This document shows, piece after piece, positions 60,730-64,000 of a stretch of 64,000 nt of DNA. Both the position numbers and the translations under genes were made by a program. Each line of letters opens with the position of its first letter. Position 1 is the first letter of the stretch. Origin of the DNA: Sulfuricurvum sp. (GTDB taxonomy: Bacteria > Campylobacterota > Campylobacteria > Campylobacterales > Sulfurimonadaceae); assembly GCA_030696775.1 (NCBI GenBank), contig JAUYRN010000033.1, positions 62,001 through 126,000 on the forward strand, in the 5' to 3' direction. The notes under the pieces are model-generated. The model was not told the DNA's origin. It made no database searches and worked only from the letters and a program-made list of their open reading frames with translations.

Positions 60730-60762
60730 ACTAACGCTTCACTAATGCTTGTGTGTGATACT
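60730..60762 (+). promoter_or_regulatory. Tandem 11-bp activator site and -10 box, site 1
   Basis: ACTAACGCTTC (60730-60740) and ACTAATGCTTG (60741-60751) are adjacent direct repeats. After five bases comes GATACT (60757-60762), preceded by TG, as an extended -10. A third half-site-like ACTAACACTAT lies at 60760-60770. The repeats take the place of a -35 box. Confidence 0.6.
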
Positions 60763-60789
60763 AACACTATCAAAACACAAGGAGATTTC

Positions 60790-61089
60790 ATGAAAACTTT
60801 AACCTTAGTAGCTCTTTTGAGCTTCGCAACTTTTTCGGCAATGGCGGAGGAAACTCCTCTTATGACACAAACTCAAAATCAAGCTGAATCAACAAGAATT
60901 CAACAACAAGAAGAGCGTCAAATGATGCAATCCAACATGTATGGTAAAAAATCAGATATGGAAAATGGTACAGGTGTAAAAACTCAAACCCAAACACGTA
61001 CTCGTACACAACTGCAAGATGGAAGCGGTGGCGGACAAAATATGAATAGTGGCATGCAAGGTGGCGGGATGAAGCGTGGCGGAAGATAA
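60790..61089 (+). CDS. Small secreted Gln/Met-rich protein
   Basis: 99 aa. The signal peptide ends near FSAMA. The mature part is low-complexity, rich in Gln, Thr, Met, Arg and Gly (IQQQEERQMMQSNMYG, TQTQTRTRTQL, GMQGGGMKRGGR) and has no cysteine. GGAG precedes the ATG. I do not recognise a family. It follows the direct-repeat promoter and forms a pair with the next gene five bases on. Confidence 0.7.
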   Translation: MKTLTLVALLSFATFSAMAEETPLMTQTQNQAESTRIQQQEERQMMQSNMYGKKSDMENGTGVKTQTQTRTRTQLQDGSGGGQNMNSGMQGGGMKRGGR

Positions 61090-61094
61090 TTAGG

Positions 61095-61430
61095 ATGAAA
61101 GGCATTTATTTTATTGCTCTTTTGAGTGTATTTACACTTAATGGTTTGGCGGTAGATTTTAGCTCTATGTCCATGGGAGAAATGCAAGCTCTTCGTGGAA
61201 ATGTTGCGAAAGAGAATCGTGCCGCTTTTCAGACTGAAATGCAAAATAGAGTTCAAGCTATGACGCAAGAAGAACGACAAGCATTTCAAGTAAACATGAA
61301 ACAAAAAAGAGTAGAAAGTGAAGACCCCATAAGTGTACCCATGCAAACACGCCTACAAATGCAACTTCAATCACAACATGAGTTGCAAACTCCCCTAAAA
61401 ACTCGTCTTACCAATACTCCTGTACGCTAA
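61095..61430 (+). CDS. Small secreted protein, DUF1104-like
   Basis: 111 aa. A signal peptide (to about LNGLA) is followed by DFSSMSMGEMQALRG and MTQEERQAFQ, a helical Met/Gln-rich region reminiscent of the DUF1104 family of Campylobacterota. The resemblance is by eye. Ends with a short TPLKTRLTNTPVR tail. Probably periplasmic and co-transcribed with the preceding gene. Confidence 0.6.
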   Translation: MKGIYFIALLSVFTLNGLAVDFSSMSMGEMQALRGNVAKENRAAFQTEMQNRVQAMTQEERQAFQVNMKQKRVESEDPISVPMQTRLQMQLQSQHELQTPLKTRLTNTPVR

Positions 61431-61437
61431 AAAAAGC

Positions 61438-61454
61438 GGGGAGTATCTCTCCCC
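61438..61454 (+). terminator. Hairpin after the small secreted gene pair
   Basis: GGGGAG/CTCCCC stem with a TATCT loop, just past the stop; no T-run follows. Confidence 0.45.
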
Positions 61455-61482
61455 CTCATCTACTTTGCTCATTGATTAACAC

Positions 61483-61515
61483 GCTAATACTTCACTAACT
61501 CTTCTATATTACAAT
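61483..61515 (+). promoter_or_regulatory. Tandem 11-bp activator site and -10 box, site 2
   Basis: GCTAATACTTC (61483-61493) and ACTAACTCTTC (61494-61504) are direct repeats; five bases later is TACAAT (61510-61515). Spacing equals that of site 1. Its presence argues that the upstream ATG at 61514 is not used. Confidence 0.6.
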
Positions 61516-61546: not shown

Positions 61547-62758
61547 ATGAAATTTTCAAAAAGTATAGCGTCTCTATCGCTTGCAGTATCCGTTGTAGTG
61601 TTGTTAATAGGATGTGGCGGAGGCGATGATGCGACGAGTACCGTCACAGCAACCGATGCAACAACAACTCTAAGTGGAACCGTCGCTGATGGGTATCTAG
61701 TCGGCGCAAAAGTATGTTTGGATAAAAATTATAACGATGTCTGTGATGCAGATGAGCCGTTTGTAATGACTGACGCTAGAGGCAAATATACGTTTACCCT
61801 TCCATACATGAGTGCAACCGAACTTCCAATACTTGTTGAAGCCGATGAAAATACGATTGACTTGGACACTAATACGACTATTGGTGAAAAATGGCACTTT
61901 AAAGCTGTTTCTGGACAAAGCAGCTTTATATCTCCACTTACCACCTTGGTTGCTCAAGCAATGGCACTAGATCCTACATTGACATTGACACAAGCGATGC
62001 TAAATCTGCAAAACGAATTAGGTCTAACTGATATAAATATTTCAGAAGATTATATTGCTAGAGATCATAACATAGCGCACAATGCGGCTAAAATTATCGC
62101 TCACTCGTTGGCAAATACCGAAGCAAATCTGACGAGTAATTTAACAATAACAACAGATGCACGAACCATTCGTTTGCTTGCAGCACAACAGGTTCGTTCA
62201 CAAACCGCCGCAATCAAAGCTGCTGCTGATATCAACAATACAGCCTTTCTTACTGAAGTCAATACAACATCTGTAGATGAACAACTTGCTACTTTGAGCG
62301 GAGTTATTGCATCTACATTGTCTATTCAACTCCAAAATGACCTGCTCTTTATGTGGGAAGAAGAACGATTAGCGAGGGATGTATATAATGCAATGTACGC
62401 CAAATGGGGTTCTAAAATTTTTACGAACATCGCCACCAATGGTGAACAAACCCATATCGACAGTGTCAAATCCATGATTGATAAGTACGCTGTAAGTACC
62501 GCAGGTTATACCGAATCAGCTGCAGCTGGAGTTTTTGTCAATCAAGACTTACAAGCTCTTTACAATACCCTCATAGCCAAAGGTAATGTTTCTGTCACAG
62601 AGGCATACAAAGTTGGGCAGCTGATTGAAATTACAGACATTGAAGATTTGGATAAACGATTACTCCCGACCGATTTACCAGCGGATATTCGTACGGTATA
62701 TGAAAACTTGAGAAAAGGCAGTGAAAGTCATCTTGCTGCATTTAACAAGCAACTCTAA
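61547..62758 (+). CDS. Lipoprotein with C-terminal DUF2202 ferritin-like domain
   Basis: 403 aa. The lipobox LIGC puts the acylated cysteine at residue 23. Residues about 42-85 (LSGTVADGYLVGAKVCLDKN) resemble a carboxypeptidase-regulatory-like beta domain. From about 264, LLFMWEEERLARDVYNAMY and NGEQTHIDSVKSMIDKY form the DUF2202 ferritin-like four-helix domain with possible metal-binding Glu/His. Start 61547 has GAGG upstream. It lies between the small secreted proteins and the two-component genes. Confidence 0.78.
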   Translation: MKFSKSIASLSLAVSVVVLLIGCGGGDDATSTVTATDATTTLSGTVADGYLVGAKVCLDKNYNDVCDADEPFVMTDARGKYTFTLPYMSATELPILVEADENTIDLDTNTTIGEKWHFKAVSGQSSFISPLTTLVAQAMALDPTLTLTQAMLNLQNELGLTDINISEDYIARDHNIAHNAAKIIAHSLANTEANLTSNLTITTDARTIRLLAAQQVRSQTAAIKAAADINNTAFLTEVNTTSVDEQLATLSGVIASTLSIQLQNDLLFMWEEERLARDVYNAMYAKWGSKIFTNIATNGEQTHIDSVKSMIDKYAVSTAGYTESAAAGVFVNQDLQALYNTLIAKGNVSVTEAYKVGQLIEITDIEDLDKRLLPTDLPADIRTVYENLRKGSESHLAAFNKQL

Positions 62759-62768
62759 GAGTATTGAC

Positions 62769-62774
62769 TATAAT
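62769..62774 (+). promoter_or_regulatory. -10 box of the two-component operon
   Basis: TATAAT 27 bases before the TTG start of the response regulator gene. Confidence 0.45.
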
Positions 62775-62800: not shown

Positions 62801-63433
62801 TTGAAAATTTTATTACTTGAAGATGATCTCATCCTTGGCGAAACCCTCGAAGAGATGCTCCAAGAGGCACATTACGATGTACTTTGGGTCAAAGATGGTG
62901 AAGAGGCTGCAGATGCAACGTTCGACACCACTTATGATCTTTATATTTTAGACATCAACGTTCCTAAAATCAATGGACTCAAACTGTTGGAAGAGCTTCG
63001 CGCTGCGGGAGACAATACCCGCGTTATTTTTATCAGTGCTCTGAGTGATATGGCATCAATTTCCAAAGGATTCAGCCTAGGGGCGGAAGATTATCTCAAA
63101 AAACCCTTTTTTCCTGAAGAGTTACTCGTACGTATCGATGCAAAATTTACTCAATTTCAAAAAGTCATTCAATTTGGAGAGATTACGTTTAATCCTCAAA
63201 ACAATGAAGTACATAAAGAAGGGCGACTTATCACGCTCGGAGATGTTCAGCTTCCGATGTTACGGATTTTTATTCAGAATATAGGTAGGACTCTTACAAA
63301 AGAGAGTTTATTTGATCTCATGGAGCACCCCAGCGATAGTGCCCTGCGTGTCGCCATCAATAAGCTTAAAACTACGACGAATTGGGAAATCCAAAATATA
63401 CGGGGAGTGGGGTATCGTCTTGAAACACGCTGA
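62801..63433 (+). CDS. OmpR-family response regulator
   Basis: 210 aa, TTG start with GGAGG. The receiver has the acidic pair D8/D9, phosphoacceptor D51 (LYILDINVPK) and K101; a winged-helix DNA-binding domain fills residues about 125-210. OmpR/PhoB-type regulators bind tandem direct repeats of about 11 bp, so the two upstream promoter sites are candidate targets. The kinase gene overlaps its end by 14 bases. Confidence 0.88.
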   Translation: MKILLLEDDLILGETLEEMLQEAHYDVLWVKDGEEAADATFDTTYDLYILDINVPKINGLKLLEELRAAGDNTRVIFISALSDMASISKGFSLGAEDYLKKPFFPEELLVRIDAKFTQFQKVIQFGEITFNPQNNEVHKEGRLITLGDVQLPMLRIFIQNIGRTLTKESLFDLMEHPSDSALRVAINKLKTTTNWEIQNIRGVGYRLETR

Positions 63434-64000
63434 AACAGAATCATTTATCAAAAGTTTTTTGGTTTTTTTTGTCTCTTTATCTCTGTTGAGCGGTTTAGTT
63501 TTTTGGTATGAATACACGCAAGAAAGACACTCTCTCGAAGAAGCCGTTTTCAATGACATGAAAGTGTGCAGTTTTGATCTCAAATGCCAACAATTTACTC
63601 TGGACTTTGCACCCTTACAGGCGGCAACACTGTATACCCTCAAAAAAGATGAGACAGGATATTACGCCCTGTTTTCTATACCAAGCGGTAAGTATGCCCT
63701 TAAGCTCCATCTCTCACAGGAGCGTTTTGATGTCATGCTGCATCAGACACGAGATCCGCTTATTCAAGCTTTTTTGATCACACTTCTTATTTTAGGGATT
63801 ATTTCTGCCCTTTTTTCTCTGTATTCACTCCATCCATTGAGAAAAGCACTTCATTTAACCCAAGAGTTTAGCCGTGATATACTTCATGATTTTAATACGC
63901 CCCTTTCGAGCCTAAGACTGAATGTAAGCCTCTTGAATGTCTCCGAGAGTGAAACCAAAAAAATTCAGCGCATCGAACGAAGCATTGAGACCATGATTTC
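63420..64000 (+). CDS. Sensor histidine kinase, N-terminal part (cut by window edge)
   Basis: About 193 codons are visible. TTG start with GGGG upstream, then a membrane helix (FLVFFVSLSLLSGLVFWY), a periplasmic region of about 85 residues with two cysteines (CSFDLKC), a second helix (AFLITLLILGIISALFSLYS) and the dimerisation H-box LHDFNTPLSSLR. The ATPase domain lies beyond 64000. It should phosphorylate the adjacent regulator; signal unknown. Confidence 0.82.
   Translation, partial: MKHAETESFIKSFLVFFVSLSLLSGLVFWYEYTQERHSLEEAVFNDMKVCSFDLKCQQFTLDFAPLQAATLYTLKKDETGYYALFSIPSGKYALKLHLSQERFDVMLHQTRDPLIQAFLITLLILGIISALFSLYSLHPLRKALHLTQEFSRDILHDFNTPLSSLRLNVSLLNVSESETKKIQRIERSIETMI

Follow-up and report, generated by a model that had tools for sequence, protein, structure and literature searches.

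Which regulator is likely to act on the two tandem repeats in front of a small cluster of envelope genes in Sulfuricurvum? The window, meaning the whole stretch of 64,000 nt that was analysed, corresponds to C25:62001-126000 of a 2.55-Mb Sulfuricurvum genome. An earlier note on this DNA had described two head-to-tail 11-bp repeats, each with exactly 5 nt between its end and a -10 box and each taking the place of the -35, and had tied them to an OmpR-type regulator encoded at 62801. The features concerned are the following.

60730..60751, plus strand: site 1, tandem 11-bp repeat, two proposed half-sites of the regulator RR1 (sequence; conserved before orthologous genes)
60757..60762, plus strand: -10 element GATACT of site 1, 5 nt (TGTGT) beyond the repeat
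60790..61089, plus strand: small secreted Met/Gln-rich protein, 99 aa (translation, composition)
61095..61430, plus strand: small secreted DUF1104 protein, 111 aa (PF06518, E 2.5e-8)
61483..61504, plus strand: site 2, tandem 11-bp repeat, two proposed RR1 half-sites (sequence; the orthologous gene in genomes G038, G035 and G019 has the same site)
61510..61515, plus strand: -10 element TACAAT of site 2, 5 nt (TATAT) beyond the repeat
61547..62758, plus strand: DUF2202 lipoprotein-like gene, 403 aa, ferritin-like C-terminal domain (PF09968, E 1.9e-39)
62801..63433, plus strand: RR1, OmpR/PhoB-type response regulator, 210 aa, proposed binder of the repeats (Pfam; motif co-occurrence; conserved recognition-helix region)
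63420..64000, plus strand: HK1, sensor histidine kinase, 350 aa, continuing beyond the window end (Pfam on L006:1420-2469)

The letters and spacing of both repeats were confirmed. Site 1, upstream of the small secreted pair 60790/61095, is composed of the half-sites ACTAACGCTTC (60730-60740) and ACTAATGCTTG (60741-60751), and site 2, upstream of the DUF2202 gene, of GCTAATACTTC (61483-61493) and ACTAACTCTTC (61494-61504). Each 22-bp site consists of two 11-mers of the form RCTAAYNCTTC. With up to three mismatches allowed, the 22-mer had two matches in the window, against a mean of 0.02 in shuffled sequences, which never gave two. The replaced -35 also held, as no sigma-70-type promoter with a -35 was reported at either site. 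Both sites have the layout of a class II promoter: a tandem repeat of ~11 bp, a fixed distance to the -10 and no -35. In enterobacterial class II promoters of the PhoB (pho box) and PmrA/PhoP type, two head-to-tail half-sites with an 11-bp period replace the -35; the RR1 sites share this arrangement, but their half-site letters differ. The -10 of site 1 is overlapped by a third, partial half-site, ACTAACACT (60760-60770), and a similar AACRCTATC is found 3' of the -10 in many orthologous promoters.

The small secreted proteins are rich in Met (9-10%) and Gln (14-18%). A Pfam/NCBIfam search with the 99-aa protein gave no match, and the distribution of DUF1104 across the genus tracks RR1 in part only. 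For the DUF2202 gene, the ATG at 61547, after GAGGAAAAAGTC, is the most likely start; the ORF-finder start at 61514 is disfavoured, as it falls inside the -10 of site 2. E45, E46, R50, E73 and H76, with ligand-like carboxylate/His residues among them, are invariant in DUF2202. The model of the DUF2202 domain of a paralogue (pLDDT 88) matched MJ0754 best (3q4r, TM 0.80), and Dps and bacterioferritins more weakly. For the DUF2202 product, a ferritin-like fold is predicted, with a ferritin-type helical bundle and carboxylate/His ligand-like residues.

RR1 follows the DUF2202 gene by 42 bp, has a TTG start codon and overlaps with the HK1 gene. A TATAAT at 62769-62774, between the DUF2202 stop and RR1, may in addition give RR1 a promoter of its own. 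In its periplasmic loop, HK1 has a C-x5-C pair, which is kept in 22 of 27 homologues and missing from a diverged branch (genomes G001-G003). The regulator at 62801, 1.3 kb after site 2, has a Response_reg and a Trans_reg_C-like domain, which is consistent with the OmpR type. Its receiver domain contains the phospho-acceptor Asp (PF00072, E 5.5e-25; D51 invariant), its match to Trans_reg_C (PF00486, E 3e-5, 24.4 bits) lies just under the gathering cut-off of 26.2, and it aligned almost full-length to NCBIfam OmpR-type models. The recognition-helix region ME[HK]PS.xALR is kept even in 45%-identical members with matching sites. RR1 was rejected as a PmrA/BasR equivalog (95.6 vs a cut-off of 330 bits, NCBIfam), and it scored 90.5 vs 296 for the NCBIfam PhoB cut-off.

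The genome was searched with the repeat pattern without any -10, and three sites beyond the two in the window were found. They are given here together with a sixth, weaker site.

C14:236949: further site, before a secreted peptide of 44 aa; a TonB-receptor gene lies farther downstream
C18:159019: further site, before two related HH-peptides
C25:229986, minus strand: further site, before a second DUF2202 protein
C25:126457: sixth, weaker site, 457 bp beyond the window end, overlapping the HK1 end

In all five sites matching the pattern, xAnnnT lies exactly 5 nt after the repeat. The operon behind the site at C25:126457 encodes a secreted protein of 110 aa, a TSP3/beta-barrel protein and RR2-HK2, a second OmpR-type pair that lies in the same cluster, just past the window. 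The HH-peptides belong to a family of secreted peptides of 44-54 aa (L007:568-702, L008:583-878) which have HH after the predicted signal peptide, so that they would start with His-His once the signal is cleaved at the usual AxA. Two of them end in SPHLxMEF; the family had no Pfam match.

Across 41 genomes of the genus, the motif plus a -10 had 33 matches, whereas its reversed pattern had 3. All 19 RR1-positive genomes of the genus contained sites near RR1, among them four genomes that the strict pattern had missed. The usual layout is a site, one or more small DUF1104-type genes (with or without DUF2202), RR1, HK1, a second site, a ~110-aa secreted protein and a beta-barrel protein. Start codons are usually located ~60 nt from the repeat start, with deviations among the diverged G001-G003 members. 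Outside the genus, sites picked by the repeat alone had xAnnnT at offset 5 in 16 of 19 cases, and in at most 6 at other offsets. Several sites lie directly before RR1 or head the RR1 operon, which points to RR1 autoregulation.

The motif also tracked the regulator. Among 228 genomes of the family, it was present in 94 of the 125 with an RR1 orthologue (best E below about 1e-53) and in 10 of the 103 without (OR 28, p 6e-25, a p-value that is overstated because related genomes are not independent); the reversed-pattern control in the same genomes gave an OR of 1.0. The trend was similar within the genus (17/19 RR1-positive vs 2/22 RR1-negative genomes) and in the biggest of the other genus groups (56/74 vs 7/61). 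At two mismatches, 31 of the 125 RR1-positive genomes had no site and 10 of the 103 RR1-negative ones had a site; some of these mismatched cases are due to incomplete genomes, and some to chance. In RR1-positive genomes outside the genus, 52 of the 100 sites listed were within 4 kb of RR1, versus 0.4 expected, and the remaining listed ones were dispersed in a regulon-like manner.

The earlier note had proposed a genome-wide search and a comparison with related genomes as checks. The search delivered additional sites with the same geometry, one of them before a second DUF2202 gene, and across Sulfuricurvum the 11-bp period and 5-nt spacing are kept before orthologous genes, the opposite of the outcome that the note had named as a refutation. 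For RR1 at 62801, until then tied to the repeats by inference, the family-wide co-occurrence of the motif with RR1 orthologues gives strong comparative support.

RR2 could be the protein bound to the repeats instead, with RR1 incidental. RR2 is related to DccR: its identity to Campylobacter DccR, whose gene was located by the synteny groEL-dccS-dccR-hemerythrin (L234), is 49%, versus 31% for RR1. In favour of RR2 are its place in the same cluster and the likeness of DccR-type sites, which are also direct repeats of 11 bp, lie almost equally far from the -10 and precede small secreted genes. RR2, however, is found in ~37 of the 41 genus genomes irrespective of the motif, whereas the motif occurs almost only alongside RR1. 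In the tree, RR1 forms a clade apart from the RR2/DccR clade (support 97/90). Moreover, DccR-type sites have TTCAC as their half-site instead of RCTAAY. RR2-bearing clusters also have a candidate motif of their own: ahead of a conserved gene for a small secreted protein lie TTCACAATC repeats, at 10 nt from a -10. Distribution, phylogeny and this different motif make binding by RR2 very unlikely.

RR1 itself was considered as a DccR orthologue, because TTC[AG]C appears in its motif when the reading phase is shifted. This was rejected on the identities and the separate supported clades. TTCAC-N6-TTCAC, which we take to be the DccR operator, also recurs in six Campylobacter genomes, followed by 10 nt, a -10 and small secreted genes. 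It was discarded as the RR1-linked operator, since the half-site there is RCTAAY and the TTCAC repeats are separate sites. Eight unexpected matches in a reversed-PWM control were not noise but a genuine repeat of another kind, the DccR type: a CTTCACAATC tandem, which in eight Sulfuricurvum clusters lies 10 nt from TATACT and before a small secreted gene that is conserved. As CTTCACAATCNCTYCACAATC, this second tandem repeat was seen at L088:14118 (approximately C25:132097-132117, minus strand) and in L069, L070, L071, L074, L075, L077 and L078. Judging from the Campylobacter DccR-type form, it is probably the operator of RR2. With different half-site letters, and with DccR-type repeats near RR2, the paralogues RR1 and RR2 appear to share the promoter geometry.

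Another OmpR-type paralogue of the Campylobacterota, for example the one encoded at C25:17805, which is widespread, is a highly improbable binder. It is the next closest RR1 paralogue in the genome (42% identical), but paralogues at 42-45% are present in most genomes of the genus, also where the motif or RR1 is missing, and the sites cluster at RR1. That the repeats arose by chance, or are a lineage-specific repeat without regulatory role, has a negligible probability: short degenerate repeats are readily found by eye, but the reversed-pattern controls, the fixed 5-nt spacing to the -10 and the dispersed sites before different envelope genes argue against it.

RR1 most probably has its operator in these repeats, through which a regulon of envelope genes would be activated in the class II manner, with HK1 as partner and RR2 in a cascade. 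HK1 would sense an envelope signal and phosphorylate RR1. A dimer of RR1 would bind head-to-tail to the two 11-bp half-sites with their RCTAAY core; the half-sites lie where a -35 would be, with 5 nt between them and the -10, and RNA polymerase would be recruited. Class II activation by RR1~P is the best reading, although sequence alone does not separate activation from repression. The sites were observed, as were their spacing, their conservation and the way they co-occur with RR1; binding, activation and read-through into RR1 are proposed. In this genome, the predicted regulon comprises the pair 60790/61095, two DUF2202 ferritin-like proteins and HH small secreted peptides, with a TonB-receptor gene behind one of them. 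RR1-HK1 would itself be included by read-through from the DUF2202 gene. RR1 would also drive the operon of small secreted protein, beta-barrel protein, RR2 and HK2, so that two systems would form a cascade.

The Cys pair of HK1, the Met/Gln-rich and HH proteins and the ferritin-like DUF2202 proteins suggest envelope redox or metal stress as a possible signal. It is possible, though doubtful, that sulfur-oxidising Campylobacterota have a two-tier envelope stress system, so far undescribed, with RR1-HK1 at its head. In such a system, a kinase with a redox- or metal-sensing Cys pair in the periplasm would turn on the small secreted proteins, both Met/Gln-rich and His-starting, the ferritin-like DUF2202 proteins of the periplasm and the DccRS-like system, with two paralogous regulators in series that use the same geometry and different half-site letters.

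As an OmpR-type regulon, this is an ordinary kind of control. The C. jejuni system DccRS (Cj1223c-Cj1222c) controls small periplasmic or membrane proteins as well as its own dccR (PMC7118207). It resembles the RR1 system in its OmpR-type regulator, the 11-bp period of the direct repeat and the nearly equal distance to the -10 (PMC7118207), and differs in the half-site (TTCAC vs RCTAAY for RR1) and in the recognition helix (PSELSLRAYVKNLRK in DccR vs PSDSALRVAINKLK in RR1); its relative here is RR2, not RR1. Helicobacter pylori CrdRS, which responds to copper and nitrosative stress (PMC9449129), is likewise an OmpR-type system of this phylum tied to envelope and metal stress. The Helicobacter-family regulators examined, with no named CrdR among them, group with DccR/RR2 and not with RR1. 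No description of the RR1 operator and its target list was found in the open-access literature, which is weak evidence of novelty. The sites offer a testable operator and target list for an uncharacterised two-component system across Sulfurimonadaceae and relatives, and a regulatory context for families without known function (DUF2202, DUF1104 and the HH-peptides). RR1 and RR2/DccR are a natural paralogue pair, alike in promoter geometry but with half-sites that have diverged, and suited to studying specificity change in OmpR-type regulators.

The same kind of sites was seen in the diverged RR1 branch G001-G003 (L085:6639 and L086:6538, both minus strand; L009; L011). There, they precede chromate-transporter-like, EptA and molybdopterin-oxidoreductase genes; an EptA gene behind the RR1-type site of one distant relative is a likeness to PmrA regulons.
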